Assembly (NCBI GenBank): GCA_039028635.1
Contig: JBCCHV010000028.1
Location: 1-64,000 of the forward strand
DNA length: 64,000 nt
Origin: Acidobacteriota bacterium
Lineage (GTDB): Bacteria; Acidobacteriota; Thermoanaerobaculia; Multivoradales; JBCCEF01
Direction of reading: 5' to 3'
Positions 43,993 through 64,000 of the stretch are shown here, piece by piece. Made by a program: the position numbers and the translations under genes. The notes beneath the pieces are model-generated. The model did not search any database. It was not told where the DNA came from and saw only the letters and a list, made by a program, of their open reading frames with translations. Within the stretch, counting starts at the first letter, position 1; the number at the start of each line of letters is the position of its first letter.

Positions 43993-44216
43993 CTTTTCAG
44001 GGGGGTAAAGGCGCGCCCCTCAGGCCTGCGCGGCCCGGCGACGCACAGGTCGTGCGCCTCGCGACCGGCCAGACTCTCCGTTTCCGGGGCGACCCAATCC
44101 TGGGCGACCCCATCCAGGACGGCCCTAGTTTCTCAGCAGCCTGCCGGCTCAAGCTCGCCCGTGATAGGGCGTACCTTCTTGCTTCACACCCACTGAAAAG
44201 CGTACCGTTGGGCGCC

Positions 44217-44537: not shown

Positions 44538-44558
44538 GAGCCTCGAGGACGAGCGATC

Positions 44559-46817
44559 ATGAAACTGGCCCAAGATCTCGAAATCTGTCTCACCGTGGCG
44601 GTCTCCGAAGCCGGCCGCATGGGCCACGAGTACGCCGGCCTCGAGCACCTGCTCCACGCCCTCACCCTCGACGAAGGAACCGCCGAGGTGTTGCGCCACG
44701 CCGGCGCCAACGTGCGGCGCCTGCGCGACCGCCTGCAGACCTTCCTCGACGACGAGCTCGAGCCAACGCCGCAAGATCGGCCGATCGAGCCCCGCCTGTC
44801 CCTCGCCCTCCACCGCACCCTGACCCGCGCCGGCGCCCAGGTCGAGGGTGCCAGCCGAGACGAGATCGAGGGACCGGACTTCCTGGCCGCGGTGTTCTTC
44901 GAAACCGAGTCCTTCGCCGTTCAGTTGCTCCAGGAGGAGGGCATCAGCCGCCTCGACGTCATCAACTACCTGGCCCACGGGATCTCACGCGCCGAGGACT
45001 CGCCTCGCCCGGCCGCCCAGCCGACCCCCGAAGGCGACTTCGACGAAGACGACGAAGGAGCTTCCGCCGCCGATGCCCTCGCCGCCTTCACCCAGGACCT
45101 CACGGCCCTTGCCGAGGGCGGCGCCATCGATCCCCTGATCGGGCGCCGCCAGGAACTCGACCGCACCCTCCAGGTGCTCCAGCGGCGGCGCAAGAACAAT
45201 CCCCTCTTCGTCGGCGATCCGGGCGTCGGCAAAACCGCCCTGGCCGAGGGCTTCGCCCGCCGCATCGCCCGGGGCGAGGTCCCGGAGCGCTTCGCCGAAG
45301 CGCGGGTTTACCGCCTCGACCTCGGCACCCTGCTCGCCGGCACCCGCTACCGGGGCGACTTCGAGAACCGTATCAAGGCGGTGCTGACGGCCCTCGAAGA
45401 GCAAGACAGTCCGATCCTCTTCATCGACGAGATCCACACCCTGGTCGGAGCCGGCAGCGCCGGCCGCGGCACCCTCGACGCTTCCAACCTCCTCAAGCCC
45501 GCCCTCCAGGGAGGGCGCCTGCGGCTGATCGGCGCCACCACCTGGGAGGAGCTCCGCCAGAGCTTCGAGCGCGACTCGGGCCTCGCCCGCCGCTTCCAGA
45601 AGATCGAGGTCCGGGAACCTTCCGTCGAGGACACGGTCCAGATCCTCCAAGGCTTGCGGGAGCAGTACCAGGGCCACCACGGGGTGCGCTATACCGGCCC
45701 CGCCTTACGCGCCGCCGCCGACCTCGCCGGCCGTTTCCTGCGCGACCGGCGGCTGCCGGACTCGGCCCTCGACCTGCTCGACGAGGCCGGAGCGGCGGTT
45801 GCTCTCAAGGGCGGCAAGCAGGTCGGAGCCGCCGAGATCGAGAAAGTCGTCGCCGGCATGGCGCGGGTTCCTCAGGTCACCGTCAAGGGCGACGATCGCG
45901 AGCGCCTGCGCCACCTCGAGGCCGAGCTCAAGGAGCGGGTCTTCGGCCAGGACGCCGCCCTCGAACGTTTGGTGGACGCCATCAAGGTGGCGCGCGCCGG
46001 CCTGCGCGAGGAGCAGAAGCCGGTCGGCTCGTTCCTCTTGACCGGCCCGACCGGCGTCGGCAAAACGGAGGTCGCCAAACAGCTCGCCGAGCTCCTCGGC
46101 GTCGCCTTCCTGCGCTTCGACATGAGCGAGTACCGCGAGCAGCACACGGTCTCGCGACTGGTGGGAGCGCCCCCGGGCTACGTCGGCTTCGATCGCGGCG
46201 GTCTGCTCACCGAGGCGGTGAGCCAGAGCCCCCACGCCGTCCTGCTCCTCGACGAGATCGAGAAAGCCCATCCGGACGTTTTCAACCTCTTGCTGCAGGT
46301 GATGGATCACGGCACCTTGACGGACACCAACGGCAAGGCCACCGACTTTCGCCACGTCATCCTGCTGATGACCTCGAACGTCGGTGCCCAGGAAATGGCT
46401 CGCCGCAGCCCCGGCTTCGTCGAGGCCGAGGCCGGCACCGTCAAGGCCTCCGACGGCGACCGCGCCGTCGAGCGCCTGTTCAGCCCCGAGTTCCGCAACC
46501 GCCTCGACGCCCGCCTGCGCTTCGCCGCCCTCACCCCCGAGGTCATGGTGCGCATCGTCGACAAGCTGATCGACGAGCTGCGCCAGCCCCTGGCGGCCAA
46601 GAAGGTGCACCTCGAGCTGACGCCCGCAGCCCGCCAGCTCCTCGCCGACAAGGGCCATGATCCGGCCTTTGGCGCTCGCCCCCTGGCGCGAGTGATCGAG
46701 GACGAGATCAAGCGGCCGCTCACCGATGAGCTGCTCTTCGGAGCCCTGGCGAAGGGCGGCAGGGTGCGAGTCGCCGTGGAGAAAGGGAACTTCGTGCTGA
46801 GCTTCGGGGATCCATGA
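44559..46817 (+). CDS. clpA: ClpA, ATP-dependent unfoldase of the ClpAP protease
   Basis: A 752-residue AAA+ protein with an N-domain (1-145), a Walker A GDPGVGKT at 219-226 with F-I-D-E-I-H-T Walker B, and a second ATPase domain with GPTGVGKT at about 496-503 and L-L-L-D-E-I-E-K. I see no ClpB-type middle coiled coil, so it is ClpA/ClpC-like rather than ClpB. It partners ClpS and a ClpP not in this window. Its stop overlaps the start of the ECF sigma gene by four bases (ATGA). Confidence 0.94.
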   Translation: MKLAQDLEICLTVAVSEAGRMGHEYAGLEHLLHALTLDEGTAEVLRHAGANVRRLRDRLQTFLDDELEPTPQDRPIEPRLSLALHRTLTRAGAQVEGASRDEIEGPDFLAAVFFETESFAVQLLQEEGISRLDVINYLAHGISRAEDSPRPAAQPTPEGDFDEDDEGASAADALAAFTQDLTALAEGGAIDPLIGRRQELDRTLQVLQRRRKNNPLFVGDPGVGKTALAEGFARRIARGEVPERFAEARVYRLDLGTLLAGTRYRGDFENRIKAVLTALEEQDSPILFIDEIHTLVGAGSAGRGTLDASNLLKPALQGGRLRLIGATTWEELRQSFERDSGLARRFQKIEVREPSVEDTVQILQGLREQYQGHHGVRYTGPALRAAADLAGRFLRDRRLPDSALDLLDEAGAAVALKGGKQVGAAEIEKVVAGMARVPQVTVKGDDRERLRHLEAELKERVFGQDAALERLVDAIKVARAGLREEQKPVGSFLLTGPTGVGKTEVAKQLAELLGVAFLRFDMSEYREQHTVSRLVGAPPGYVGFDRGGLLTEAVSQSPHAVLLLDEIEKAHPDVFNLLLQVMDHGTLTDTNGKATDFRHVILLMTSNVGAQEMARRSPGFVEAEAGTVKASDGDRAVERLFSPEFRNRLDARLRFAALTPEVMVRIVDKLIDELRQPLAAKKVHLELTPAARQLLADKGHDPAFGARPLARVIEDEIKRPLTDELLFGALAKGGRVRVAVEKGNFVLSFGDP

Positions 46818-47407
46818 CCGCCGATCCCAGCGAGCTCTCGGGCGCGCAGCTCGAGATCACCGGTCTGCTGCTGCGCTGGCGGTCCGGAGACGAGGAAGCC
46901 TTCGAGGCCCTGCTACCGCTGGTCTACGAGAAGCTGCGCGCTCTCGCCCGCACTCAGCTACGCAGCGAGCGTCAGAACCACACCCTGCAAGCCACCGCCC
47001 TGGTGCACGAGGCCTACGTCCGCCTGCTCGGCGACCAGACGCCCGACTGGCAAGGTCGCGCACACTTCTACGCCGTCGCCTCGGTGGTGATGCGGCGGGT
47101 TCTGATCGAGCATGCTCGCGCTCTCAATCGACAGCGCCGCGGTGGCGGAGCGGTCCAGGTCGAGCTCCAGGACGACCTGCTGTTCACGGACCCCGCCGCG
47201 ACCGCCGAGCTGGTGGCCCTCGACGACGCCCTCGGGCGCCTCGAGGAGCACGACCTGCGCAAGGCCCGGGTCGTCCAGCTACGCTTCTTCGGCGGTCTCA
47301 CCCTGGACGAAGTCTCCGAGGTCCTGCGGGTTGCGCCGGTGACGGTGGTGCGCGACTGGCGCATGGCCCGCGCCTGGCTCCTCAAGGAGCTCGGCGCCAC
47401 CGCTTAG
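46814..47407 (+). CDS. HAL-type ECF sigma factor (cassette 1)
   Basis: A 197-residue sigma factor: region 2 has P-L-V-Y-E-K-L-R-A-L-A-R and H-T-L-Q-A-T-A-L-V-H-E-A-Y-V-R-L, then V-V-M-R-R-V-L-I-E-H-A-R-A, and region 4 has Q-L-R-F-F-G-G-L-T-L-D-E-V with V-T-V-V-R-D-W-R-M-A-R-A-W-L. This is the ECF subgroup common in Acidobacteriota and Planctomycetes (HAL/TIGR02999-like). No anti-sigma gene is adjacent. It overlaps clpA and lies upstream of an Ig-repeat protein gene, which it may transcribe. Confidence 0.92.
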   Translation: MTADPSELSGAQLEITGLLLRWRSGDEEAFEALLPLVYEKLRALARTQLRSERQNHTLQATALVHEAYVRLLGDQTPDWQGRAHFYAVASVVMRRVLIEHARALNRQRRGGGAVQVELQDDLLFTDPAATAELVALDDALGRLEEHDLRKARVVQLRFFGGLTLDEVSEVLRVAPVTVVRDWRMARAWLLKELGATA

Positions 47408-47493
47408 GGCCCTTTCGCCCCCCGGGCCGGCCCCCAGGTCAGCCCCTCCCTCCCCCGGCCCAACGGGCCATGACCGAGTTTTCTCGATCCCGG

Positions 47494-47515
47494 CGCAACC
47501 AGGAATAGGTACGCA
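47494..47515 (+). promoter_or_regulatory. Putative shared promoter element, copy 1
   Basis: Twenty-two bases that match 56226-56247 at 16 positions, including CGCA at the left and an identical TAGGTAC (47506-47512). The two copies sit at almost the same distance from their start codons: TAGGTAC begins 59 bases before the ATG here and 53 bases before it there. Possible target of the neighbouring sigma factors; inference only. Confidence 0.35.
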
Positions 47516-47564
47516 TTCATTCGCCGAACGGGGCACCCCGCGAAGGCATCCATCAGGAGGTTTC

Positions 47565-50500
47565 ATGCGCCCGATCTATTCCCGACGCCGTTGTCCATTC
47601 TTCCTTCTGGTTCTGCTCGTCGCTGGCCTGGCTCTTGCTCAAAGCCTGGCTGCCGAGCAGGCTGTCATCGAACCACCGGATGGCACCTTTCAAGCTCCCG
47701 CGGCAGCTTCCTCCGTCGACAGAATCTGGCTTCAGCACTGGGGACAAGGTTCGGGTCAGGGGGCGTACCTCGAACTGAAGCCAGCGCCACGCGATGCGAG
47801 CCCGGATCTCCCCTGGCTCGCCACCACGGTCCTCGCGGACGGAAGCTTCGGAACCGGCACATTCGTCGAGATCGCCGGTACTCGGACGGAGATCTCATCG
47901 GACCTCTGGCTGCCCCAGGGAGAAGAGCTCTACGTCTTCACCGAGACCTACCAGGTCAGCGGACAGCTCATCGGACCGCACTCAGAAAAGCCCAGCACAG
48001 TCACAGGCCGACTCCTCGTCTTGAGGCAAGGGAGTCGGGACTTGCGAGTTCTGTCCGTTGAGAGAACCGAATCTTCCAAGGCCAGCGCCATCGCCGCTGC
48101 AGGAAACTTCCAGGCTCTGACCGGTGCCGTTTCGAACCTCGGCAGTGGCAACCTACCGCCGGTTTTCGAGCAGGGCTGTGACGATGCTCCCATCGACAAC
48201 TGCGGAGCCTCGTTCTGCGGCTGTACCAACGACCTCTACATCGGCGCAGGGATCGATCTTGGTCTTTGCTTGACAAGCATCGCCGTGGGAGTGATCTCCT
48301 GCGCCTGCGCCGCGGTTCCCGGCACCAACTTTGCCTGCCTCGTTGGCTGCGGCGCTTCGATTCCAGGGCTCAGCTTCTGCCTCGACTTCCTCACCACCGA
48401 CCCGGTCGAAGGTATCGGTAACTGTACTCACGCTAGCCTCGAGTGCTACTGCCAGCAGTTCCCGGCGCAGTACGGCCATCTCTGTGAGGAAGTCAGCTTC
48501 CTGCGCAGTGCAGACGTCGGTGCCACCGGGCTCCTTTCTGCAGAATCCGTCGAAATTCAGGCTGAATGTCGGGCCTCGAACGGACTCGTCCGCGATTCGG
48601 GAACCGTCACCCTGAACGACAATGGCACCTTCAAGGAAATCCTGGACGAGTGCGCCGAAGGCGACCAGGTCGTGTTCGAGACGCCTCGAGTGCAAACGCC
48701 GAACATCCCCGACCACCGACGGCGGACCTGCATCCTCGACTCCACCGTTCCGACGAGCAACGTTTTCGGGAGCGAAGATCTGACCTTCCAGTTCGACTGC
48801 ACGTGCAACGACGTGGTGAACCAATGCCCGCGCATGTCGCTTTCGGCACAAATCACGGGGCTCGAGGCGGACGAAAGCCTGTCCTACGTCATCGGGATCG
48901 GTCCGTCCTCCGGCGCCACCGGAGAATTTCTCGCCACCCTCCAGGCTCAAGGGTCCTCCGACGGATCCAGTTTTCGCGCCAACCTGCAGAATGCCGATGG
49001 CTCCGGCGCCGCCAACGGCTATCAGGGTTACCAGGTCAACTTCATTTCCCGAGTGAGTGGTCCGGAACGCTGCCAAGTGACCGACAACAGCCCGATGCCC
49101 GGACCGTCCGGAGGTCGGAGCTTCCTCTTGCTCGACATCGATTGTTCCTGCAACGAGCGAGGGGCCGAGGGCGATGACGGCTGTGGCTCGACTCCCCTCG
49201 TCCTCTACCAAGTCGGCGCCCAGATGGACCTCGACACCTTCGATGGCGTCGAAGGCGAGGGCAGTATTCGGGCCGCAATGGATGTCTACGACCCCTTCCA
49301 CGGCGGGCTCGTCGCCAGCGACACGGTCATCGTGAATGCCGACGCCGAGGTCAGCTACTTCGGCCCCCTGGTCGAGGAAGGAAGCCGGGTCGAGCTTTAC
49401 ATTCAACAGTCAGGCATCGGCATGAACTGCGGCAACTTCGTGCCCAATTCCTTCGAGATCAACAACGACACCGTGGCCTGGGTCGCGTGCACCACCGGAC
49501 CACGCTACGACTGCGAAGTCTTGGGGATCTGCGACGACGATTGTCAAGACGTCTGGACCTTCATCGGTGAAGGAGAGATCGAAGTCATCGACGAGGGCGG
49601 GGAAACCTCCTCCCAGCCGGTCGACATCTATGAGCTCCTCGGCTGTTCGGGCAACTACGAGCTCGGCGGCCAGCGCACTGCCGGCACGGCCGCAGCGGCC
49701 GCGACGCCATCGAATTTGATCGGCTCGAAGGTCTTCGTGCGCAACCGCGAGAACTCCACCTGGTCTGGAGTCATCGAGGTTACGGGAGTCGCCCGCGACG
49801 ACGAGGATGGCGTCAGCCAAATTCGCGCCTTCGTCGACGGACAGCCGGTGGCCCTCACCGACCTCGCCATCAACACCTTCGATCCGCTGACTTGCAGCGA
49901 GTACCAAACCGCAAACTGCAACCCCAACTCGGGATTCCGGGCCAAGCTAGACACACGAGGCTTCAGCGATGGTCCGCACACCCTCAGCATCGTCGCCGAC
50001 CGCGGCCCCGGCACGGTCCCCGGCATGCGAAACGTCACCCTGAACTTCGCCAACGGCAACCAAGCCGAAGAGAACGACTCGGCTCCAGGCGCAGTGCATT
50101 TCCCGACCGAGATGGCCTGTGGCGCCGCCGGCTCCGCGAGCATCAGCGTGCGCAACACCGGCACTGCAACGTGGACGGCGGCGGCGGGCTATCGCCTCGC
50201 AGCGGTCGGGAATTCCGATCCAGTAGCGACGACAACGTCCTTTCCGATTCCGCCCGGTCAGAGCATTGCGCCAGACCAGACGGTGACTTTCAATTTCCCA
50301 TTGCAGGCCCCGACCGCAGAAGGAACCTATCGTTCCGACTGGCGGATGCGAAAAACCGGCGTCGGCGGTTTCGGTCCGTGGATCGCTGTCCGCGATGTCG
50401 TGGTGACCTGCAACACGTCGGTCAATGATTCGAGCTTGCTTTCGGTCAGCTTTCCAAGCGAGCTCGAGTGCGGAACCACCGCAACGGCGACGGTGACCCT

Positions 50501-51926
50501 GCGCAATACCGGCACCACCACCTGGGACAGCGGCAGCGGCTACACACTGCGCGCACCGAGCGGTAGCGATCCCCTGGCAACCGTCACGAGCATTCCGCTC
50601 ACCGCTCCGGTACCGCCGAACGATGGCAGAGCTTTCCAGATCCCCCTGCGAGCACCGGACACCGCCGGCAGCTACACCTCTCACTGGCGCATGAGCCGGT
50701 TCGCGTCCCTCTTCGGTGACGTCGCCAGCGGCACGGTGCAGGTGACCTGCTCGGACGGTGGCGGTGGTGGTGGCGGCGGAGGCGGCCAGCAGGAGGTCGA
50801 CAACGCCTCGCTGGTGGCCGCCAATCTGCCGAGCTCGCTGCCCTGCTCCGGCAGCATGACCGCCAGCCTGACCTTCCAGAACAATGGCACCAGCACCTGG
50901 AGGGCGTCGGATGGTTACCGCCTGCGCGCCGTCGACGGCAGCGATCCCCTCACCAGCACGGTGGTGGTGCCGCTGCCCTCGAGTGTCGTCGTGGCTCCCG
51001 GCCAGCAGCACACCTTCCAGGTCGCGCTGACGGCACCGTCGGCGAGCGGCACCTACCGTACCGACTGGCGCATGGATCGCCTGGGCTGGAGCCCTTTCGG
51101 CGCCTTCGCCCAGTCCGACGTCGCCGTCTCCTGCGGCGGTGACGGAGGGGGTGGCGGTGGAGGGGGTGGTGGTGGCGGAGGGGGTGGCGGAGGGGGTGGC
51201 GATACCGACGCCGCCCGCCGCCTCGCCGACACCCTGCCGGCATCGCTGGGTTGTGGCACGGTGCAGGCCAGCATCACCTTCGAGAACACCGGCAACACCA
51301 CCTGGAGCCGCGACGCCGGCTACGAGCTGCGCGCCGTCGGAGGGACCGATCCGTTCTCCCAGAGCACGCGGGTGCAGTTGCCGAGCGGGGTCCAGATCGG
51401 TCCGCAGCAGCAGCACACCTTCGGCCTCACTCTGACCGCGCCCGGAACTCCCGGCTGGTATCGCACCGACTGGCAGCTCCACCGCGAGGGCACGCCCTTC
51501 GGACCGGACATCAGCCGCGATATCCAGGTCACCTGCAGCGATGGCGGCGGCGGTACCGACGACGCCATCTTCCACGACTCCAATCTGCCGCTGTCGATGG
51601 AGTGCGGTGACGGCCTGTGGGCCGAGATCTGGGTGCGCAACGTCGGCACCACCACCTGGACCGGCGCCGAGGGCTACAGCCTGCAGGCGATCGGCGGTAT
51701 CGATCCCCTCGCCGGCACCGCCAGCATGCCGCTTCCGGCCGGCGAGACCGTCGAGCCGCAGCAGACGGTGAAGTTCCGCCGCTGGTTCGAAGCCCCGAAC
51801 CAGGAGGCCTTCCTGGTCTCTGACTGGAAGATGCACAAGACCGGCCACGGCACCTTCGGAGCCCTCATCGCCATGGAGGTCGAGGTGATGTGCTTCTCCG
51901 GCGGTGACGGCGGCGGAGAACCATGA
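47565..51926 (+). CDS. Large exported protein with five NBR1-type Ig-like domains (cassette 1)
   Basis: A 1453-residue secreted protein with a signal peptide (to about residue 28, S-L-A-A-E). Residues about 206-310 are unusually Cys-rich and partly hydrophobic. Middle regions are beta-rich, with a D-T-F-D-G block and a bacterial Ig-like segment (G-S-K-V-F-V-R-N-R). The last 600 residues are five copies of about 105 residues (844, 958, 1080, 1215, 1333 onward). Each has the plan S-x-x-C-G..., R-N-T-G-T-x-T-W, G-Y-x-L, D-P-L, A-P-x-x-x-G-x-Y-R-x-D-W-R-M, F-G-x-F, ending in V-x-C. That is the four-tryptophan/NBR1 fold. Glycine linkers separate some domains; one is long. AGGAGG precedes the ATG. 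Function unknown; surface or matrix binding is likely. Confidence 0.82.
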   Translation: MRPIYSRRRCPFFLLVLLVAGLALAQSLAAEQAVIEPPDGTFQAPAAASSVDRIWLQHWGQGSGQGAYLELKPAPRDASPDLPWLATTVLADGSFGTGTFVEIAGTRTEISSDLWLPQGEELYVFTETYQVSGQLIGPHSEKPSTVTGRLLVLRQGSRDLRVLSVERTESSKASAIAAAGNFQALTGAVSNLGSGNLPPVFEQGCDDAPIDNCGASFCGCTNDLYIGAGIDLGLCLTSIAVGVISCACAAVPGTNFACLVGCGASIPGLSFCLDFLTTDPVEGIGNCTHASLECYCQQFPAQYGHLCEEVSFLRSADVGATGLLSAESVEIQAECRASNGLVRDSGTVTLNDNGTFKEILDECAEGDQVVFETPRVQTPNIPDHRRRTCILDSTVPTSNVFGSEDLTFQFDCTCNDVVNQCPRMSLSAQITGLEADESLSYVIGIGPSSGATGEFLATLQAQGSSDGSSFRANLQNADGSGAANGYQGYQVNFISRVSGPERCQVTDNSPMPGPSGGRSFLLLDIDCSCNERGAEGDDGCGSTPLVLYQVGAQMDLDTFDGVEGEGSIRAAMDVYDPFHGGLVASDTVIVNADAEVSYFGPLVEEGSRVELYIQQSGIGMNCGNFVPNSFEINNDTVAWVACTTGPRYDCEVLGICDDDCQDVWTFIGEGEIEVIDEGGETSSQPVDIYELLGCSGNYELGGQRTAGTAAAAATPSNLIGSKVFVRNRENSTWSGVIEVTGVARDDEDGVSQIRAFVDGQPVALTDLAINTFDPLTCSEYQTANCNPNSGFRAKLDTRGFSDGPHTLSIVADRGPGTVPGMRNVTLNFANGNQAEENDSAPGAVHFPTEMACGAAGSASISVRNTGTATWTAAAGYRLAAVGNSDPVATTTSFPIPPGQSIAPDQTVTFNFPLQAPTAEGTYRSDWRMRKTGVGGFGPWIAVRDVVVTCNTSVNDSSLLSVSFPSELECGTTATATVTLRNTGTTTWDSGSGYTLRAPSGSDPLATVTSIPLTAPVPPNDGRAFQIPLRAPDTAGSYTSHWRMSRFASLFGDVASGTVQVTCSDGGGGGGGGGGQQEVDNASLVAANLPSSLPCSGSMTASLTFQNNGTSTWRASDGYRLRAVDGSDPLTSTVVVPLPSSVVVAPGQQHTFQVALTAPSASGTYRTDWRMDRLGWSPFGAFAQSDVAVSCGGDGGGGGGGGGGGGGGGGGGGDTDAARRLADTLPASLGCGTVQASITFENTGNTTWSRDAGYELRAVGGTDPFSQSTRVQLPSGVQIGPQQQHTFGLTLTAPGTPGWYRTDWQLHREGTPFGPDISRDIQVTCSDGGGGTDDAIFHDSNLPLSMECGDGLWAEIWVRNVGTTTWTGAEGYSLQAIGGIDPLAGTASMPLPAGETVEPQQTVKFRRWFEAPNQEAFLVSDWKMHKTGHGTFGALIAMEVEVMCFSGGDGGGEP

Positions 51927-51955
51927 GTCCTATCGGGCCGTAAGGCCTGCCACTC

Positions 51956-51987
51956 ACCGGGGCGGCCCACGTCGCCCCGGTCTTTTT
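51956..51987 (+). terminator. Rho-independent terminator after Ig protein 1
   Basis: A 9-bp stem ACCGGGGCG / CGCCCCGGT (51956-51964 with 51973-51981) followed by CTTTTT. It starts 29 bases past the stop. The terminator after the paralogue at 60495-60530 has nearly the same stem and T run, showing that the whole unit was duplicated. Confidence 0.88.
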
Positions 51988-52046
51988 GTATTTACGAGCC
52001 ACCAGGATTAGGCTGGATCACCCGCAACGGACGGATCCGAGGAACG

Positions 52047-54947
52047 ATGAGCGCAAACAACGCCCGCTGGAAGAAGCTCGACGACCTGTTTCACCAGGTG
52101 AGCGAGTTGCCGCCCGATGAGCGCCAGCCCTTTCTCGACCGCGCCTGCGCCGACGACGCGGCCTTGAAACGGGAACTGGAAGGTCTCCTGGCAGCGGATG
52201 TACTGCCCGACGGCTGGATCGATGGCTCGGCCTCGCAAACGGCGATCGAGCTGATCTCTTCGGACCAGCAGTTCCCTCGGGGAGCGTTGATCGGGCGCTA
52301 CCGAGTGCTCGACACCCTCGGCCATGGTGGCATGGGGGTCGTCTACCTCGCCGAGCGCAGTGATGGCCACTACGACCAGCGGGTCGCCCTCAAGGTGATC
52401 AAGCAGGGCATGGACACCGCTGCCCTCCTGACCCGCTTTCGCCGCGAGCGGCAGATCCTCGCCAACCTCGATCATCCCGGCATCGCGCGTCTCCTCGACG
52501 GCGGCGCCACTCCCGAAGGTCGCCCCTATCTGGTGATGGAGCACATCGAGGGAGAACCGATCGATCAGTACGTCGGAAAGCATCGACTGGCGATCGATCA
52601 GCGTCTCGACCTGTTCCTGGAGGTGTGCGAAGCCGTGCAGTTCGCGCACCGCAACCTGATCATCCATCGCGACCTCAAACCCTCGAACATCTTGGTGACC
52701 AAAGACGGAGCTCCCAAGCTCCTCGACTTCGGCACCGCCAAGCTCCTCGAAAGCTCGGAAGAAGGCCAGACCGCCTACGACATGCGCCTCCTGACGCCCG
52801 GCTACGCCAGCCCGGAGCAGCTCGACGGTCGCCCAATGACGACCGCCTCGGACGTCTTCGGTCTCGGCGTCTTGCTCTTCGAGCTGCTCACCGAGCGCCA
52901 TCCCTTCCGCGAGGCCGGCGTCGACCGCCAGGCGATGGCCTATGCGGTAACCGAGCGCCCGGCCCCGAGGCCGAGCACGGTGGCGCCGAGGAACCGGCAA
53001 ACGCGCCTCCGGGGCGACCTCGACGCCATCACCCTGTGTGCCCTGCGCAAGGAGCCCGAGGATCGCTACGATTCGGTCGCCGCCCTGATCGAAGACATCG
53101 AACGCCACCGCACGACCAAACCGGTGCGCGCCCGGCAAGGAGATCGGCGCTATCGCGCCCAGCGCTTTCTCAAGCGCCACCGGCTGGTGCTGGGCGCCAC
53201 CTTGGTGACCTTGACCATGGCCGGGCTCTGGCTGGCGGCCCTGGTGCGGGAACAGCGGGAAACGCGCCAGGAAAAGGTCCGCCTGACCGCGATGACCGAG
53301 TTCATGCAAAGCCTCTTCGACGGCTTCGATCCCCTGCGCGGGGAAGAGCAGCCGGTGACCGCCCGCGAGATGCTCGACCGGGGAGCGGATCGCCTGGCCG
53401 GCGAGCTCGGCGAAGCGCCGGAGCTCGAGACCGAAGTCGCCAAAGTCCTGGGAGAGATTTACACCAATCTCGGTTTTCCCGAGAAGGCCCACGAGATCCT
53501 CCTTTCGGCGCTCGCCCTCGAGCGCGAGCGCCTGGGGAATCGCCCACGACAGCGCGCCGACCTCCTCAACCGGGTCGACGCCGCAGAGATCAGCTTCAAC
53601 GACCTCGAAAGCGCGCGCCGCCGTCTCGAGGGCAACCTCGTCGAGCTCGAATCGGCCGGCCTCGGCGACAGCCTCGAAGCCGACAGCGGCCGCCTGCGGC
53701 TCGGCGCCCTGCTTCGTACCTCCGGTGAGTATGACGCCGCCATGGCGCTCCTCCAGCCGGCTCTCGACGGCCTGCGCACCCACCCCGAGGAAGCCGCCGA
53801 GCGAATCGACATCGCTCTGGTCGAGTTGGGCTTGACCCTCGGGCACTTGCAAAGGCCCGAGGCGGCCCGGGACTTGATTCAGGAGGCGGTCGATCGACGC
53901 AGCGCCCGCCACGGCGACGACCATCCCAAGACCATCGTCGCCCTCGAAGCCCTGGGAGCCCAGCTCTTCGATCTCGAACAGCTCGATCAGGTGGAGGAAA
54001 TCACCGGACGCGTCCTCGTCGCCCGACGCAAGATCTTCGGCGACGATCACCCCAGCGTGCTCGCCAGCTACTTCAATCGCGGCGCCCTCTTCGCCACTCT
54101 CGGCAACTATCAAGAGGCCGCCGAGCACCTGGCCGAGGCCCTCGACCGAATGCGCAATCACCACGACAAGGAGCACCCGCAGATCGTGCCGGCGCTGCTC
54201 TGGTCGGCCCGTGTCGGCTTCGACCGCGGCGACCTCGAGACGGCCCGCACCCATGGCCGGGAGGCCTTGGTGAGGGCCCGTCCGGGCTTTCCCGAGGGTC
54301 ATCCGATCATCGTCGACACGCTCACCCTGCTCGCCCGAATCGAGCGCGATGCCGGACGACCCGCGGAGGCACGCAAGCTCCTGGAAGAGGCTCGCACCAC
54401 GGCCCCGAACAACCATGAGCGGCGACTCGTCAACCTCTATCTGGCCGAGCTCAGTCTCGACGAGGATCGCCTCGAGGAGGCGGAGGAATGGCTCGAGCGA
54501 ATCTCTCAAACTCCCGGCCGAGGCGACCTCAGGCTCAGGACCCGAGCGGACATCGCTCGAGGGTCGATTGACCTACGGCGCGGAGAACTCGAACAGGCCG
54601 AGGTGCATCGACAACAAGCCTTGAGCCGCGCCGTCAAGAGCCTGAGCGTCGCCGACCAGCTTCTGCTGGAGATTTATCAGGCCGCCATCGACCTGGCCGC
54701 CAACCGCCCACAGCTCGCCGAAGAGCGCAGCCGCAAGGCCCTCCATCGAGCCCACGAGACGGTGGGACCGAGGGCAACGCGAACGGGCCAGTGCGAGCTC
54801 GCCCTCGGACTGGCACTGCAAGCCCAGGGACGAGCTTCCGAAGCTCGCTCCCACCTCGAAAAGGCCGAGGCCTTGCTGCCAGCGCCCCGCGACCGGCCGC
54901 CTCAGGGATCCCCGACGGCACGGCAAGCGCTGGCGAACCTCTCCTGA
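52047..54947 (+). CDS. Transmembrane Ser/Thr protein kinase with TPR repeats (cassette 1)
   Basis: A 966-residue protein. The kinase domain (about 82-355) has GHGGMG (92-97), VALK with Lys116, H-R-D-L-K-P-S-N with Asp209, DFG at 227-229 and S-P-E-Q. A membrane helix follows (about 379-400), then a TPR-rich half (from about 430) that should face the other side of the membrane. It begins R-W-K-K-L-D-D-L-F like its paralogue at 60677 (R-W-Q-R-L-D-K-L-F). GAGG precedes the ATG. Probable role: phosphorylation of the neighbouring sigma factor or other proteins; not shown by sequence. About 240 bases without a clear gene follow before the next sigma gene. Confidence 0.92.
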   Translation: MSANNARWKKLDDLFHQVSELPPDERQPFLDRACADDAALKRELEGLLAADVLPDGWIDGSASQTAIELISSDQQFPRGALIGRYRVLDTLGHGGMGVVYLAERSDGHYDQRVALKVIKQGMDTAALLTRFRRERQILANLDHPGIARLLDGGATPEGRPYLVMEHIEGEPIDQYVGKHRLAIDQRLDLFLEVCEAVQFAHRNLIIHRDLKPSNILVTKDGAPKLLDFGTAKLLESSEEGQTAYDMRLLTPGYASPEQLDGRPMTTASDVFGLGVLLFELLTERHPFREAGVDRQAMAYAVTERPAPRPSTVAPRNRQTRLRGDLDAITLCALRKEPEDRYDSVAALIEDIERHRTTKPVRARQGDRRYRAQRFLKRHRLVLGATLVTLTMAGLWLAALVREQRETRQEKVRLTAMTEFMQSLFDGFDPLRGEEQPVTAREMLDRGADRLAGELGEAPELETEVAKVLGEIYTNLGFPEKAHEILLSALALERERLGNRPRQRADLLNRVDAAEISFNDLESARRRLEGNLVELESAGLGDSLEADSGRLRLGALLRTSGEYDAAMALLQPALDGLRTHPEEAAERIDIALVELGLTLGHLQRPEAARDLIQEAVDRRSARHGDDHPKTIVALEALGAQLFDLEQLDQVEEITGRVLVARRKIFGDDHPSVLASYFNRGALFATLGNYQEAAEHLAEALDRMRNHHDKEHPQIVPALLWSARVGFDRGDLETARTHGREALVRARPGFPEGHPIIVDTLTLLARIERDAGRPAEARKLLEEARTTAPNNHERRLVNLYLAELSLDEDRLEEAEEWLERISQTPGRGDLRLRTRADIARGSIDLRRGELEQAEVHRQQALSRAVKSLSVADQLLLEIYQAAIDLAANRPQLAEERSRKALHRAHETVGPRATRTGQCELALGLALQAQGRASEARSHLEKAEALLPAPRDRPPQGSPTARQALANLS

Positions 54948-55186
54948 CGGAACCGTTGCGGAGGAGCCTAGGAGACAATCAGGGACCTGCCTGGCTGGGC
55001 TTCGACGATCACCGCGAACGAGACAGTCCCAGCATCGTCGAGCGTCACGATCTGGACAGCGAAATCGAGCCCGCCGCCGCCGTCCTTCGAGGCGCTCCTC
55101 GCCGGCCTGGTCGAAGACGAATTGGTCCGGGTCTGCGAAGGCTCACCAAGAAGCCCTCGACCGGGCGATAAGATCTTGCGCGAGAG

Positions 55187-55849
55187 ATGACCACCTCCGA
55201 GCCAACCCAGGAAGCGCACCAAGTCACCGGGCTCTTGCAACGCTGGCGGGCGGGGGACGAGGCCGCCCTCGAGGCTCTCGTGCCGCTGGTCTACGAAACC
55301 CTCCTCAAGATGGCGCGAGGACAGTTTCGCCGCGAACGGGTCGACCACACGCTGCAACCGACGGCCTTGGTTCACGAGGCTTACGTACGTCTTCTGGGCC
55401 CGCAAAACCCCGAGTGGGAGGATCGCACCCACTTTTTCGGCATCGCCGCCCTGGTGATGCGCCGCGTCCTGATCGACCATGCCCGGTCCCATCAGAGCCT
55501 GCGGCGCAGCGACGGATCCCTCAAGGTGGACTTCGAAGAGGCCTTGGAGGTCACCAGCCCCCAACGAACCACGGATCTGCTGGCCCTCGACGAAGCCCTC
55601 GATCGGCTCGAACGGCGGGATCCGCGCAAGGCGCGCTTGGTGCAGCTCCGCTTCTTCGGCGGTCTGACCCTCGACGAGGTCGCCGAGATCCTTCAGGTCT
55701 CCCAGGCGACGGTGGTGCGCGACTGGCGCTTGGCGAGGGCCTGGCTGCTGACCAAGCTCGGCTCCGAGAATCGCGGGCCGAACCTGTCGGCCACTCGGTC
55801 AGGCCGTGTCCATCCTCCGGCCCCTCGCAGAAGCCCCCACCAAGACTGA
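55187..55849 (+). CDS. HAL-type ECF sigma factor (cassette 2)
   Basis: A 220-residue paralogue of the 46814 sigma, with H-T-L-Q-P-T-A-L-V-H-E-A-Y-V-R-L-L, L-V-M-R-R-V-L-I-D-H-A-R-S and region 4 L-R-F-F-G-G-L-T-L-D-E-V-A-E-I-L. It has an extra 25-residue Pro/Arg-rich C-terminal tail, probably not functional. No anti-sigma gene nearby. It lies 240 bases after the first kinase gene and is separated from the next Ig protein gene by a MITE-like element. Confidence 0.92.
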   Translation: MTTSEPTQEAHQVTGLLQRWRAGDEAALEALVPLVYETLLKMARGQFRRERVDHTLQPTALVHEAYVRLLGPQNPEWEDRTHFFGIAALVMRRVLIDHARSHQSLRRSDGSLKVDFEEALEVTSPQRTTDLLALDEALDRLERRDPRKARLVQLRFFGGLTLDEVAEILQVSQATVVRDWRLARAWLLTKLGSENRGPNLSATRSGRVHPPAPRRSPHQD

Positions 55850-55868
55850 GCCAGGGCAAGCGAGCCAC

Positions 55869-56079
55869 CTAGCAGGTTGCTGAAAAACTCGTCGGCAACC
55901 TGCGACCGGGCCCGAGAGGGCCCGGCGGTGGCGTAGCCGCCGCGACGGGAGAGGAGGCCCAAGAACCGCGCTTCTTGGGCCGGAGCGGGACGCGTAGTCA
56001 GGGGCGCGTAGCCCCTCTCGGAAAAACAGCTAGCAGCGCTGGAAAAGTCGCGAAGCGGACTTTTTCAGCAGCCTGCTAG
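55869..56079. mobile_element. MITE-like element with terminal inverted repeats
   Basis: A 211-bp element whose ends CTAGCAGGTTGCTGAAAAA (55869-55887) and the complement of CTAGCAGGCTGCTGAAAAA (56061-56079) match at 18 of 19 bases. It encodes no transposase, and contains a perfect 10-bp hairpin (55956-55965 with 55972-55981). The CTAG ends may include target duplication. Consistent with a non-autonomous element mobilised in trans; the parent IS is not in this window. Confidence 0.75.
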
Positions 56080-56225
56080 AGCCCCCTGCCGGCCTCCCCA
56101 GGGGCCACCTTCAGCACCGAGCTCTTCGTCTGCTCGGTCCCCCTGCACCCTCGCTTTCTCGTCGAGGCATTCCACCTCGACCCAACCCTCTTCGAGATTC
56201 GATGACGGAGCCTGCGACGAGCCAC

Positions 56226-56247
56226 CGCAGCTTGAAGTAGGTACACA
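56226..56247 (+). promoter_or_regulatory. Putative shared promoter element, copy 2
   Basis: Counterpart of 47494-47515: CGCA then TAGGTAC (56238-56244), 16 of 22 positions identical and a similar distance to the start codon. It lies downstream of the MITE-like element, so it would still drive the Ig protein gene after that insertion. Confidence 0.35.
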
Positions 56248-56290: not shown

Positions 56291-59200
56291 ATGCGCCCGA
56301 AATCCGGTTCGCCCCGACGACTCGTTCTCGCCTTCGCTCTGATCACCACCCTGACCGCCTGGCCTGCGTCAGCGAGTCAGGACCTCTCGACTCCCGCTGG
56401 CCGCGAGACGGTCATCGAAGAGCACTACACCACCGTCGCCAAGGCGACCGGTGATGCGCTTCGGCTCGAAGTCTCGAGTTTCCTCCACCTGACTCGAGAA
56501 GAGTTCTCGAATCACTCCTGGTTGTCCCTTGTCACACCCCCCGAGGGATTCCTCATCGAGCTCGAAGAAACGGGTTCCTCCGGACCGATCGGACCGCGCT
56601 TGACCGGCTCATGGAGCGACCAACCGCTCCCTCCCTACTTCTCTCAGCCTGATGCGACACTGGTCAGCTCGCTGAGCCTTCGAAACGTCATCGACGAGCT
56701 CACCAACGAAGATCGAGCCTGGCGCAAAGTGAAATATGTCACTTCTTTTCGTGTCCAGGCCTCCCTCGGTGACCAACAGAGGGACCACTACGCCATTGCC
56801 TTCTGGTTCGCCACCGAACGAGGTACCAGCGTCTCCTACCGACTCTTGGACGCTCTCATACCCCACATCGCGACCGCTATCGGTTGGATCGCCGACGATG
56901 ACCGCAGCAGGCAGTCAGCAGCGAAGCCCTCATCCTTGGCGGAATCCCAGCAGGCCGAAGCGACCACATCCAGCTCGCAACAGTGCGTAGCCTGGGAATT
57001 CGACCTGTCCCGCGGCTATGACTTCAGCCCCCCGGATTGGGTCGGTTCCTACGGCGCGCAACCGATTCCTGGCATTCCCAACGAAGCCCTCTCGACCCCC
57101 TCACACAACGGGCACCTGGCAAACGTCACGGCCGGTTTCAAGTGCAAGTGCACCGAGTCTTGCATCGCCCGGTCTTCCCCCTTTCCGGTGCTGGGCTCAG
57201 GGGCCTGCGTCGCCAATCCGAACATTGGAACCTGGTGGAGGTGCCATCGTCTGAGTCCAGGCCCTGGCGTTGCCACCAGGAACGACCTCGGCGACTCGAA
57301 TACCAGAGCCCTGGGCACCATCGGCTGGGGCTGCGCCTACAAGGTCTGCCCGTTTTGTCTGTGTGGCGTCACCGTTGTCGCTGCTTACAATGGCTTTGCG
57401 CTCGAGCTCCAGCTTTCCCCGTTCGACGCCGTGCCCTGGAAGGCCGAGTACAGCGAGTACTGCCCCGCCTGTCGCACCAGAGTGCCGGTCACACTTCGAG
57501 TCACCGGCCTCGATCTGGGCCAGCACGCCAACCTCAACGTCCTGCCGAATCCAGGGTTCTTTCCCGATAGCGAGTACCAGAGAATTCACGGCTTGGCGGA
57601 CGGCTCGCCCGTGACCTTGCCCCTCGACTACACGATGGTCGACGGCTCCTCGGTGCGAGTGAAGTTCATCTCCGGCAGCCAGGGAATCTCCTGCCCACGC
57701 GTCGAAACCACCGTGTCGGGGGCAACCACCATCGAAGTTCAGTGCGACTGCCAGTCATCGGCCGATGGCGAGGACACCTGCGGCGGTGGCACCCAGACGC
57801 CACCCGGGCTCTATCAAGTGGGCGGCGAGATCGACGTCGACACCTTCGATGGGGAGGAGAGCGAGGGATCGGTTTCCTTGGAGTTGTTCGCCTACAGCGA
57901 TCAAACGGGCGCCCTGATCGCCAATGAAGTCATCACCGTCACGGCCCATGCTGGCCCGACCTACTTCAGCTCCCTCGTTGCGGAGGGCAGCCAGGTCAAC
58001 CTGACCATCCGACAAACCGGCACCGGCATGCAATGCGGAAGCGTGGTACCGAGCAGTTTTCAGATCTCCGGCGACACCGTGGCCAATATCGGCTGTACTG
58101 TCGGACCGGAGTACTGGTGCCACCTGTTCGGCAACTGCGAAGGCAACCAGTGCCGGGACGAGTGGACCTTCATCGGCGAAGGGGAGATCGAAGTTACCGA
58201 CGCCAGCGGCAACACCGAAACTCAGCCGGTCGACATCTTCGAGTTGGCCGGATGCGCGGACAACTGGGGCGAGGAGGAGCTCGGACAGCCTGTCACCGAG
58301 GGCGGAGATCCGCCGTCGACGTTGGTCGGCTCCAAGGTCTTCGTGCGCAACCGCAGCGGCAGCACCTGGTCCGGCACGATGGAGATCGTGGGCGTGGCGC
58401 GCGACGACGAGGACGGCGTCAGCCGCATTCGCGCCTTCCTCAACGGCAATCCGGTGCCACTCACCAACCTGCAGATCAACCAGCCGGACCCGTTGACCTG
58501 CGGCGAGTACTCGACTCCCAACTGCAACTCCAACACCGCCTTCCGAGGCCATCTCGACACCACCGCCTTCGCCGATGGGGTTCACACCCTGAGCGTGGTG
58601 GCCGACCGCGGACCCAACACCGTCCCCGGCATGAGGAACATCACCGTGGTGTTCGACAACGGCAACGGCGGCGGCACCAACGATGCCGAGATGTTCTCGG
58701 TCAACTTCCCGTCGAGCCTCGACTGCGATCAAACGACCACCGCGACGATCTCGGTCGAAAACACCGGCACCACTCAATGGACCTCCGCCGACGGCTACCA
58801 CCTGTTCGCTCGCGGTGGTTCCGACCCACTGGCCGACAGCACCGCCATCGGCCTGCCAACCAACATCACGGTCAATCCCGGCCAGATCTATGCTTTCGAG
58901 ATTCCCCTGCAGGCGCCTTCCACGGAGGGCACCTACACCTCCGAATGGCGCATGAAACAGACCGGCGTCGGGGAGTTCGGCCCGGTGGTCAGCCGCAACG
59001 TCACCGTCTCCTGTGGCGATCCGGAGCACGACGCCCAGCCGACGCTGATCAGTTTTCCCAGCGAGCTGACCTGTGGCGAAAGCGCCACCGCCAGCGTGCG
59101 CATGAAGAACACCGGCACCTCCACCTGGACCGGCCCTGGCGGGTTCGGCCTGCATGCTCCGAGCGGCGCCGATCCCCTGGCGACCACCCAGGCGATCGCC

Positions 59201-60460
59201 GTCGACGGAGTGGTGTCCCCGAACGACAGCGACCTCTTCACCATTCCGCTGCTGGCGCCCGCCGAGGCCGGAACCTACACCTCCCATTGGCGGATGGCCC
59301 GGGGCAGCAGCCTCTTCGGAGTCAAGGCCACGGCGACCGTCACCGTCACCTGCGAAGGTGGCGGCGGCGGCGAGGATCCGATCGACAACGCCACCGTGGC
59401 CAGTTCGACGCTCCCGACAACCATGGCCTGCGACGGCAGCACCACCGCCGTCGTCACCATGCGAAACAACGGCACCAGCACCTGGACGGCGGCGAACGGC
59501 TATCGCCTGCGAGCCGTCGGCGGCAGCGATCCGCTGACCAACGACCTCGAGGTGCTGCTGCCGGCCAACCTCAACATCGCACCGGGGCAAGAGCACGACT
59601 TCTCCATCCCCCTCGAGGCACCGGGAACCAGCGGCACCTACCGCACCGATTGGCGCATGTTCCGCCAGGGCTGGAGCGAGTTCGGGGGCATGGCGGTGGC
59701 CGATGTCACGGTGGACTGCGACGGGGGCGGCGGTGGCGGTGGCGACACCGATGCCGCCCAGCTCCAGTCGGAAACCCTGCCGGGAACCATGGGGTGCGGC
59801 ACCCAGAACGCCAACATCACCCTCAAGAACACCGGCAACACCACTTGGACCCGCGCCGGCGGCTACGAGCTGCGGGCCATCGGAGGCACCGACCCCTTCA
59901 CCAGTAACACCACCATCCGCCTGCCCTCGAATGCCTCGATCGGACCCGACCAGAGCCACACCTTCCAGGTCGCCCTCACGGCACCCGGAACACCCGGCTG
60001 GTACCTCACCGACTGGCGGCTCCACCGCGTCGGAACCGGAGGCTTCGGACCGCAGGCCATCCAGAACGTCAACGTCACCTGCACCGACGGTGGTGGCGGA
60101 GGCACCGACGACGCCACCTTCTACGACTCGAACCTGCCTCTCAGCCTCGACTGCGGAGAACGAGTCTGGGCCAGCATCTGGGTCAAGAACGTCGGCACCA
60201 CCACCTGGACCAAGGCCGACGGGTACAGCCTCCAGGCCATCGGAGGCACCGATCCTCTCGCCAATACCGCCAACATCCCGTTCCCCGACGGCGTCACCAC
60301 CGGGCCTCAGGACACGGTCGAGTTTCGACGCTGGTTCGAGGCCCCCATGGAAGAGGACTCCTACCTCTCCGACTGGCAGATGAAGAAGACCGGCAGCGGC
60401 ACCTTCGGATCGCCAATCCTCCTCGAGGTCGAAGTCTTCTGCGACGGAGAGGAACCTTGA
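56291..60460 (+). CDS. Large exported protein with five NBR1-type Ig-like domains (cassette 2)
   Basis: A 1389-residue paralogue of the 47565 protein: signal peptide (ending A-S-A near residue 28), a diverged N-terminal half that still has a Cys-rich segment (near 344-375, G-W-G-C then V-C-P-F-C-L-C), the shared D-T-F-D-G block and G-S-K-V-F-V-R-N-R segment, and five Ig-like copies starting near residues 798, 919, 1033, 1154 and 1274. Domain for domain the order matches the first protein. The third and fourth are separated here by a short Gly linker, in contrast to the long one in the first protein. The GGAG at 56282-56285 supports this ATG over an earlier in-frame one. Confidence 0.82.
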   Translation: MRPKSGSPRRLVLAFALITTLTAWPASASQDLSTPAGRETVIEEHYTTVAKATGDALRLEVSSFLHLTREEFSNHSWLSLVTPPEGFLIELEETGSSGPIGPRLTGSWSDQPLPPYFSQPDATLVSSLSLRNVIDELTNEDRAWRKVKYVTSFRVQASLGDQQRDHYAIAFWFATERGTSVSYRLLDALIPHIATAIGWIADDDRSRQSAAKPSSLAESQQAEATTSSSQQCVAWEFDLSRGYDFSPPDWVGSYGAQPIPGIPNEALSTPSHNGHLANVTAGFKCKCTESCIARSSPFPVLGSGACVANPNIGTWWRCHRLSPGPGVATRNDLGDSNTRALGTIGWGCAYKVCPFCLCGVTVVAAYNGFALELQLSPFDAVPWKAEYSEYCPACRTRVPVTLRVTGLDLGQHANLNVLPNPGFFPDSEYQRIHGLADGSPVTLPLDYTMVDGSSVRVKFISGSQGISCPRVETTVSGATTIEVQCDCQSSADGEDTCGGGTQTPPGLYQVGGEIDVDTFDGEESEGSVSLELFAYSDQTGALIANEVITVTAHAGPTYFSSLVAEGSQVNLTIRQTGTGMQCGSVVPSSFQISGDTVANIGCTVGPEYWCHLFGNCEGNQCRDEWTFIGEGEIEVTDASGNTETQPVDIFELAGCADNWGEEELGQPVTEGGDPPSTLVGSKVFVRNRSGSTWSGTMEIVGVARDDEDGVSRIRAFLNGNPVPLTNLQINQPDPLTCGEYSTPNCNSNTAFRGHLDTTAFADGVHTLSVVADRGPNTVPGMRNITVVFDNGNGGGTNDAEMFSVNFPSSLDCDQTTTATISVENTGTTQWTSADGYHLFARGGSDPLADSTAIGLPTNITVNPGQIYAFEIPLQAPSTEGTYTSEWRMKQTGVGEFGPVVSRNVTVSCGDPEHDAQPTLISFPSELTCGESATASVRMKNTGTSTWTGPGGFGLHAPSGADPLATTQAIAVDGVVSPNDSDLFTIPLLAPAEAGTYTSHWRMARGSSLFGVKATATVTVTCEGGGGGEDPIDNATVASSTLPTTMACDGSTTAVVTMRNNGTSTWTAANGYRLRAVGGSDPLTNDLEVLLPANLNIAPGQEHDFSIPLEAPGTSGTYRTDWRMFRQGWSEFGGMAVADVTVDCDGGGGGGGDTDAAQLQSETLPGTMGCGTQNANITLKNTGNTTWTRAGGYELRAIGGTDPFTSNTTIRLPSNASIGPDQSHTFQVALTAPGTPGWYLTDWRLHRVGTGGFGPQAIQNVNVTCTDGGGGGTDDATFYDSNLPLSLDCGERVWASIWVKNVGTTTWTKADGYSLQAIGGTDPLANTANIPFPDGVTTGPQDTVEFRRWFEAPMEEDSYLSDWQMKKTGSGTFGSPILLEVEVFCDGEEP

Positions 60461-60494
60461 TCGCGGGGACCTGAGCAATTGCGGTCCTCCGTTC

Positions 60495-60530
60495 CCGGGG
60501 CGCCGGCGCGGTGGCGCCCCGGTCTTTTTT
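60495..60530 (+). terminator. Rho-independent terminator after Ig protein 2
   Basis: CCGGGGCGCC (60495-60504) pairs with GGCGCCCCGG (60513-60522) around an 8-base loop, followed by TCTTTTTT. It begins 34 bases past the stop of the Ig protein gene. Confidence 0.9.
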
Positions 60531-60676
60531 CCTCGAGCGTCAGGATCCGAGCAGCGGTTGCCAGGGTCGGAACGAGCACCGCGACTTGTACTATTCCAAT
60601 CACTCGGCGGACCTGGCCCAGCACCCAGACGTAGAGTCCGCCCGATTTCCGAGAACCAGCTCTGACTTCATTCTCC

Positions 60677-63580: not shown

Positions 63581-63645
63581 CCCGAACGCCGGTTAGGATG
63601 GCCTCCGCCCGGACCGCGCCGAACCGGTTCCGGGTGGGGAGGACC

Positions 63646-64000
63646 ATGGAGCCAGATCTCGAAGCGGGCGAGCACGGCTCGCCGACCAGCGCCGGCCAGG
63701 TGACGCGACTCTTGCGACGCTGGCGGGATGGGGATGAAACCGCCTTCGAAGCCCTGGTCCCCCTGGTCTACGACGAGCTCAAGAACCTGGCTCGACGGCA
63801 GTTGCGCCGGAACCGCCGCGATCACACCCTGCAGCCGACGGCGCTGGTTCACGAGGCCTACGTCCGGCTGGTCTTGCGGCAGCGCCCGAACAGCACCAGC
63901 CGCAGTCATTTCTTCGCCATCGCGGCCATCGTCATGCGCCGCGTGCTGATCGACCACGCCCGGGCCCACTTTCGCCAGCGCCGTGGCGGTGGGGCGATTC
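63646..64000 (+). CDS. HAL-type ECF sigma factor, cut by the window edge (cassette 3)
   Basis: The first 118 residues of a third paralogue: L-L-R-R-W-R-D-G-D-E, P-L-V-Y-D-E-L-K-N-L-A-R-R-Q-L, H-T-L-Q-P-T-A-L-V-H-E-A-Y-V-R-L, then I-V-M-R-R-V-L-I-D-H-A-R-A-H-F. Region 4 lies past the window. A GGAGG ends 3 bases before the ATG. It lies 65 bases after the second kinase gene, the same order as in cassettes 1 and 2, so a third Ig protein and kinase may follow. Confidence 0.9.
   Translation, partial: MEPDLEAGEHGSPTSAGQVTRLLRRWRDGDETAFEALVPLVYDELKNLARRQLRRNRRDHTLQPTALVHEAYVRLVLRQRPNSTSRSHFFAIAAIVMRRVLIDHARAHFRQRRGGGAI

Follow-up and report, generated by a model that had tools for sequence, protein, structure and literature searches.

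What governs the large immunoglobulin (Ig)-repeat protein genes that alternate with sigma factor and kinase genes in this Acidobacteriota genome (G000; 6,281,182 bases in 117 contigs)? The 64,000-base stretch analysed here (the window, C28:1-64000) carries two such genes, and an initial annotation had noticed upstream of both a 22-base element, CGCA followed by TAGGTAC, which it regarded as a possible promoter for the sigma factors of the same cassettes. Comparison of the array with the rest of the genome and with related genomes makes it probable that the element is a promoter of the extracytoplasmic function (ECF) type, with a -35 box (CGA)TGACNGA and a -10 box (RT)CG[CT], which would drive the secreted Ig gene alone and would most likely be read by the four sigma factors of the array. 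The promoter-like nature suggested at first stands, and the distribution of the element tracks the clade of the cassette sigma factors, but the boxes had been wrongly assigned.

Structure of the upstream element

The two copies first described, CGCAACCAGGAATAGGTACGCA at 47494-47515 and CGCAGCTTGAAGTAGGTACACA at 56226-56247, do agree at 16 of 22 positions, with TAGGTAC 59 and 53 bases before the start codons (ATG 47565 and ATG 56291), and a search for CGCA-N8-TAGGTAC returned exactly these two matches in 6.28 Mb (reversed control, none). Both their number and their extent need revision. The array holds three intact copies and a fourth before what appears to be a deleted Ig gene, the third and fourth lying just beyond the window and each downstream of another ECF sigma gene; CGCA, taken to be constant, reads CGTG in copy 3; and a TGACNGA block begins 23 bases before CGCA, outside the 22 bases originally delimited. 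This block precedes TAGGTAC by 35 bases in units 1-3 and TAGGCAC by 34 bases in unit 4. TAGGTAC alone has 62 matches in the genome, three of which fall in a sigma-Ig intergenic region, and the third of these (C28:64394) is just past the window, between the third ECF sigma gene and the third Ig gene. The pattern TGACNGA-N25..30-TAGGNAC has five genomic matches (reversed control, two), of which four are the array units and the fifth, on C98, differs in spacing.

When the stretches between sigma and Ig genes in the three intact units (157, 441 and 193 bases) are searched without guidance for their best ungapped 44-base alignment, exactly this element comes out, identical in 21 of 44 columns; over 200 dinucleotide shuffles the maximum was 18 and the commonest value 15. 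Fourfold-degenerate sites are 46-59% identical between cassettes, against 39-45% expected from composition. As silent sites are thus nearly randomised, the conservation of the element does not merely reflect recent duplication, and the element was kept while its surroundings drifted.

In ECF promoters, two conserved boxes precede the gene at a constant distance from each other of about 16-18 bases, and the Bacillus subtilis SigW promoter reads TGAAAC-N16-CGTA. The same plan is found here, with two conserved boxes at a fixed spacing upstream of a gene. An invariant CG[CT] lies 23 bases from TGAC in all four array copies (P1 to P4) and in a set of 12 aligned sites, and the sole length change among the array copies is one base between the -10 box and TAGGTAC. 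TGAC and GA are present in 12 of the 12 aligned sites, which had been selected with TGAC.GA, and the predicted start position is a purine in ten of them. From the geometry of CG[CT] and TGAC, CGCA would be (part of) the -10 box, TGACNGA the -35 box, and TAGGTAC, lying beyond the -10 box, neither, which replaces the earlier pairing of CGCA with TAGGTAC. The predicted transcription start lies some ten bases past the -10 C; TAGGTAC would then occupy about +3 to +9 of the message. TGAC stands 94 (P1), 88 (P2) and 86 (P3) bases before the start codon, and 99 bases at a site in G033, a genome of another family in the same order (for P2 the distance is to the ATG; the gene caller gave 58, to an upstream GTG). 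The element shares with classical ECF promoters such as that of SigW the two short boxes, the TGA-type -35, the CG-type -10 and a similar box distance; it differs from them in the boxes themselves, TGACCGA and TCGCTR, and in the extra TAGGTAC near the message start in the array copies.

Downstream of every Ig gene lies a strong GC stem with a T run (T1 to T4, -23 to -29 kcal/mol); T4 has a loop of 9 bases and escaped the first terminator scan, which allowed loops of up to 8. With a terminator closing each Ig gene, transcription from the promoter should cover no other gene, which leaves the kinase-sigma pairs in need of promoters of their own; on the same grounds, read-through from each promoter across Ig gene, kinase gene and next sigma gene was rejected. 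In unit 4, the Ig gene appears to have been deleted except for its tail, with P4 kept as a near-perfect promoter (C28:72468-72722). Ahead of T4 is a frame with the sequence GLATFGLPRRLEIDTFCGFAGAGGEP-stop, which matches the last part of Ig2 (9 of 17 positions, E 0.001 in a 309-base target) and ends in GGEP-stop, as Ig1 does. Because a chance-like match of similar E-value (0.005) occurs elsewhere in the same 309-base stretch, position, register and terminator carry as much of the case for a deletion as the E-value does. A fifth promoter candidate, P5 (TGACCGAGGCTCCCGGAATTCGTCGCTAA), was seen 240 bases short of the contig end (73003), at C28:72763, with no clear gene downstream before that end.

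Distribution in the genome and in relatives

Patterns were searched in 118 genomes, this one and 117 others, which include G001 (from the genus of this genome), G033 and G044 (from the genus of G033). Gene and intergenic regions were assigned with a simple, crude gene caller, and secretion was judged by eye from a signal-like N-terminus. TGACCGA-N15-TCGCTA has five matches in this genome, all intergenic, and one in G033, also intergenic; the 116 other genomes hold 13, 11 of them coding, and the reversed control gave 14 over the 118. When GATGACCGA-N15-TCGCTA was searched with up to two mismatches, eight of the matches in this genome kept TGACCGA and TCGCT[AG], all eight being intergenic, whereas G033 has one such site and G001 and G044, both of which lack a close orthologue of the array sigma factors, have none. 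The fuller promoter, CGATGACCGAR-N13-RTCGCTR, stands at six further intergenic places off C28, 87-214 bases before genes for a long RHS/YD-repeat protein, a CARDB protein, a Hanks-type kinase and proteins of 88, 424 and 142 amino acids, the last three without a Pfam match; beyond this genome and G033 it occurs at chance level. Five of the six proteins, the exception being the kinase, start with a signal-like stretch. The same motif is thus found before further genes, as in a regulon, and the promoter would also govern at least these six scattered genes. Placement agrees with the proposal of a promoter: at its own spacing the composite of TGACNGA and TAGGTAC matches only the four array units, and the genes behind the wider promoter encode Ig-type proteins, other proteins that look secreted, and one kinase. 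A site at C17:12377 was set aside as ambiguous, and a match at C28:68820 was rejected as the start of kinase 3. At C14:102191 (L309:1192), GACGACCGA-N15-CCGCTA directly abuts TAGGTAC at the end of a gene, about 50 bases before a signal-like start.

Among the 118 genomes, the closest outside relative of the array sigma factors is encoded in G033 (330 bits; the next, at 258 bits, is also from G033), and a search over 148 genomes of the class gave none other as close; both searches scored the best 22-27 candidates of each genome. In G033 a kinase gene follows the sigma gene, and the pair adjoins a gene whose product looks secreted and matches N_BRCA1_IG weakly (20.8 bits, where the cut-off is 28). 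A matrix made from the four array sites was run over 44 sequences including the array contig, and the ranking took in intergenic sites no more than 500 bases from a gene start; the G033 site scored 17.5, second-best among the scores listed, and the next non-array score was 14.9. This site has no TAGGTAC at the corresponding position. Left out of the 12-site matrix, it scored 28.8. The best control scores with the 12-site matrix were 21.3 in 80 less related sigma loci (812 kb; the best 80 of 578 sigma loci from a scan of genome contigs, 42-55% identity, mostly Acidobacteria by title) and 20.5 in 34 further loci (33 of relatives and one of this genome; 428 kb); the earlier of two scans of genome contigs had found no relative. 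Because the 12 sites were collected by searching for the TGAC.GA pattern, scores of this matrix on its own sites are circular, and the independent tests are the two G033 scores, with the four-array-site matrix and by leave-one-out.

The composite TGAC...TAGGTAC is at chance level in the 117 other genomes (nine single matches, against 48 for the reversed control). Across 24 loci of relatives' distant Ig proteins and this genome's own other Ig loci, taken with flanks, the best composite scored 16.9 (L109, spacing 38, above its five shuffles), against 25.9 and 23.4 for the array copies in L050, and the rest scored at shuffle level. Two G001 matches (L100) were rejected, as they lie inside duplicated coding sequence.

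Alternative readings and the role of TAGGTAC

Several points weigh against a promoter read by the array sigma factors. All the evidence comes from sequence, and 33 of the 37 strong PF07638 sigma factors of this genome lie outside the array, one of which could read the promoter. With up to two mismatches, GATGACCGA-N15-TCGCTA gave 30 matches against 14 for the control in this genome, 18 against 13 in G001, 42 against 25 in G033 and 19 against 23 in G044. The loose pattern TGACNGA-N16-CGYNA is mostly noise (43 matches in this genome against 13 for the reversed control, and 59 against 36 in G033): off C28, 33 of its 39 matches in this genome are coding and six intergenic, four of these within 150 bases before a start, and four of the 29 matches checked among the 59 in G033 are intergenic. 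Intergenic and coding calls depend on the crude gene caller, and secretion on a reading by eye. The 12-site matrix scores P1 at 21.6, P2 at 17.2 and P3 at 13.9, against 23.0-30.2 for P4, P5 and the scattered sites; P2 and P3 fall below the best control matches (21.3 and 20.5), so that they would not be called alone and rest on the array comparison. The co-occurrence of promoter and sigma group, moreover, is seen in two genomes.

The abundance of PF07638 sigma factors, together with the promoters of this class far from the array, would suit an ECF promoter read by another member of the family, with the array sigma factors acting elsewhere. We judge this unlikely, in view of the tight group that the array sigma factors form (61-68% identity within the group, no more than 52% to any of the 26 other paralogues aligned) and of the relatives: G033, with a close sigma factor, has the pattern, and G001, whose six sigma factors at E 1e-55 or better are all more distant, has no match to the 13-base pattern. 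That TGACNGA and TAGGTAC form a two-part transcription-factor operator is quite improbable. Their exact spacing of 35 bases in three array copies, about 3.3 helical turns, would fit such an operator, but outside the array the sequence conserved together with TGACCGA is TCGCTR, at offset 22, rather than TAGGTAC, and a promoter suits both the box spacing and the 86-99 bases that lie before the start codons of the array and G033 genes.

As the longest invariant block in the three intact copies, TAGGTAC might itself be taken for the -10 box, paired with CGCA or with some other stretch upstream. No identical column is found, however, at the expected -35 offsets of about 11-17 (only isolated columns at 10, 19 and 20), CGCA is only 12 bases away and changed in copy 3, and other promoters of the class lack TAGGTAC at that position, which leaves this reading highly improbable. 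We regard it as scarcely credible that the similarity is a functionless leftover of tandem duplication of the cassettes. These are plainly paralogous, with Ig proteins 47-51% identical, yet against almost randomised silent sites TGAC-CG-TAGGTAC in register is the best-aligning intergenic stretch, and the same -35 and -10 boxes stand before unrelated genes and in another family.

In the ECF promoter that we favour, TAGGTAC is not a general component: 8 of the 12 aligned sites, including P5 and the G033 site, have neither its exact nor a one-letter form at offset 34-36. A genome-wide operator or regulon marked by TAGGTAC was considered and set aside. Of its 58 places off C28, 8 are intergenic, 42 antisense and 8 same-strand coding. 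Two of these have TGA[CT]NGA in the preceding 60 bases, one antisense in coding sequence and one at C20:52033; at the latter, TAGGTAC lies inside the -35/-10 spacer of a promoter of this class (L316:2056-; C20:52055-52026). The promoter before the CARDB protein (L346:1187; C65:6186) has TAGGTGT at offset 36, near the array offset of 35. An RNA element was rejected as well, with no Rfam match at gathering scores in L050 or L149 and no fold common to the three leaders. P1-P3 have the weakest -10 boxes yet a perfect TAGGTAC in place, and promoters with strong boxes are mostly without it. One speculative role, to which we assign a low likelihood, is that of a third promoter element that would let the degenerate -10 boxes of P1-P3 work with their own sigma factor, by which four kinase-sigma pairs might address near-identical promoters without full cross-talk. 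We can name no known counterpart for this part of the promoter near the message start.

The array, its sigma factors and their possible activation

The array runs in the order clpS, clpA-like gene, sigma 1, P1-Ig1-T1, kinase 1, sigma 2, P2-Ig2-T2, kinase 2, sigma 3, P3-Ig3-T3, kinase 3, sigma 4 and P4-(Ig remnant)-T4; coordinates are collected in Table 1.

Table 1. Coordinates of the promoters, genes and other features of the array, in the window or, where given with the contig (C28), past it.
Feature	Position	Strand	Description
Sigma 1	46814..47407	+	TIGR02999/PF07638 ECF sigma factor; region-2.2 motif QATA; 4-base overlap with clpA-like gene
P1 -35 box	47471..47478	+	TGACCGAG; core TGACNGA, invariant in all array copies
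P1 -10 region	47492..47499	+	GGCGCAAC; core CG[CT] at offset 23; C-G offsets 23-24 in all four array copies and the 12 aligned sites
P1 TAGGTAC	47506..47512	+	About +3 to +9; predicted start near 47504
Ig1	47565..51926	+	Predicted secreted, signal-like N-terminus by eye; five N_BRCA1_IG stretches; putative P1 target
T1	51945..51990	+	Terminator after Ig1; 11-pair GC stem, then CTTTTT
Kinase 1	52047..54947	+	Hanks-type Ser/Thr kinase with tetratricopeptide repeats; HRDLKPSN, DFG
Sigma 2	55187..55849	+	TIGR02999/PF07638; motif QPTA
Inverted-repeat insertion	55869..56079	+	Between sigma 2 and P2; 22-nt arms, 91% complementary
P2 -35 box	56203..56210	+	TGACGGAG; from array alignment and 12-site alignment
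P2 -10 region	56224..56231	+	ACCGCAGC; from array alignment and 12-site alignment
P2 TAGGTAC	56238..56244	+	Predicted start near 56236
Ig2	56291..60460	+	Predicted secreted, signal-like N-terminus by eye; five N_BRCA1_IG stretches; putative P2 target
T2	60488..60535	+	Terminator after Ig2
Kinase 2	60677..63580	+	Hanks-type kinase with tetratricopeptide repeats
Sigma 3	63598..64000	+	Only start inside window; open reading frame ends at C28:64251
P3	C28:64359-64400		Past window
Ig3	C28:64445-68728		Past window; followed by T3, kinase 3 and sigma 4
P4	C28:72468-72508		Past window

At 44052-47407, sigma 1 overlaps the ClpA-like ATPase gene by 4 bases and lies behind the ClpS gene; no kinase gene precedes it, unlike sigmas 2-4. 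The insertion between sigma 2 and P2 comprises 211 bases with arms TAGCAGGYTGCTGAAAAA; paired arms occur also in L319 and L344 of this genome, and single arms at eight other loci of this genome and at one G001 locus (L275). A central segment of the Ig proteins, about 290 amino acids long, reaches 566-573 bits only within this array, the next best in the 118 genomes being in G001:C16 (117 bits), where the Ig relative is adjoined by a divergent sigma gene of the same family.

Against TIGR02999 (Sig-70_X6)/PF07638, for which the cut-off is 126 bits, scores of 220-224 bits were obtained with sigma 1, sigma 2 and the sigma factor of G033. The array group differs from other sigma factors of this family by the region-4 helix TVVRDWR[LM]ARAWL, the full form of which occurs in none of the 26 other paralogues aligned. 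Region 2.2 reads QATA in sigma 1 and QPTA in sigmas 2-4 and G033, within TLQ[AP]TALVHEAY. HRDLKPSN and DFG are intact in kinases 1-3, which have a hydrophobic stretch near residue 380. With membership of PF07638/TIGR02999, an uncharged Thr motif in place of DAED and an adjoining Hanks kinase, the array sigma factors resemble the kinase-activated group ECF43, which we take to coincide with TIGR02999. A PDB sequence search with the sigma alignment gave no match at E 0.01.

According to the parts of the literature covered, the Thr of ECF43 sigma factors is phosphorylated by the neighbouring Hanks kinase, which is proposed to permit RNA polymerase binding, and the Thr-to-Ala form of EcfK is still functional, so further sites may matter (PMC8999054, PMC13147305); the consensus in place of DAED is given as QTTA (PMC13147305). 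The parts covered of PMC13147305, PMC8999054 and PMC8103513 contain no target-promoter consensus for comparison. The systems EcfP-PknT of Vibrio parahaemolyticus and EcfK-PknS of Xanthomonas citri share with the array a Thr motif without the acidic DAED and adjoining Hanks kinases, whereas here genes for large secreted proteins with Ig repeats alternate with those for four paralogous sigma factors and for three kinases. By analogy with ECF43, the neighbouring Hanks kinase would phosphorylate the Thr of Q[AP]TA and thereby activate the sigma factor. A signal would then pass through kinase and phosphorylated sigma factor and lead to transcription of the scattered targets and of the genes for the secreted Ig proteins. 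The early links of this chain are suggested by the family, and the promoter with its targets comes from the sequence itself. Because all four sigma factors have the same region-4 helix, some cross-talk between them is likely, which TAGGTAC or the variant -10 boxes of P1-P3 might limit.

An ECF promoter with its regulon is of a kind already known. For kinase-activated ECF sigma factors, no target promoter was found in the literature searched, the coverage of which was partial, so that one may be in print. The promoter, terminators and target genes defined here would make a kinase-activated sigma system directly testable by reporter fusion. They would also tie a sigma and kinase array to an output of large secreted Ig-repeat proteins and other secreted-looking proteins, and may provide a concrete case for how tandem paralogous sigma factors stay separate or communicate.

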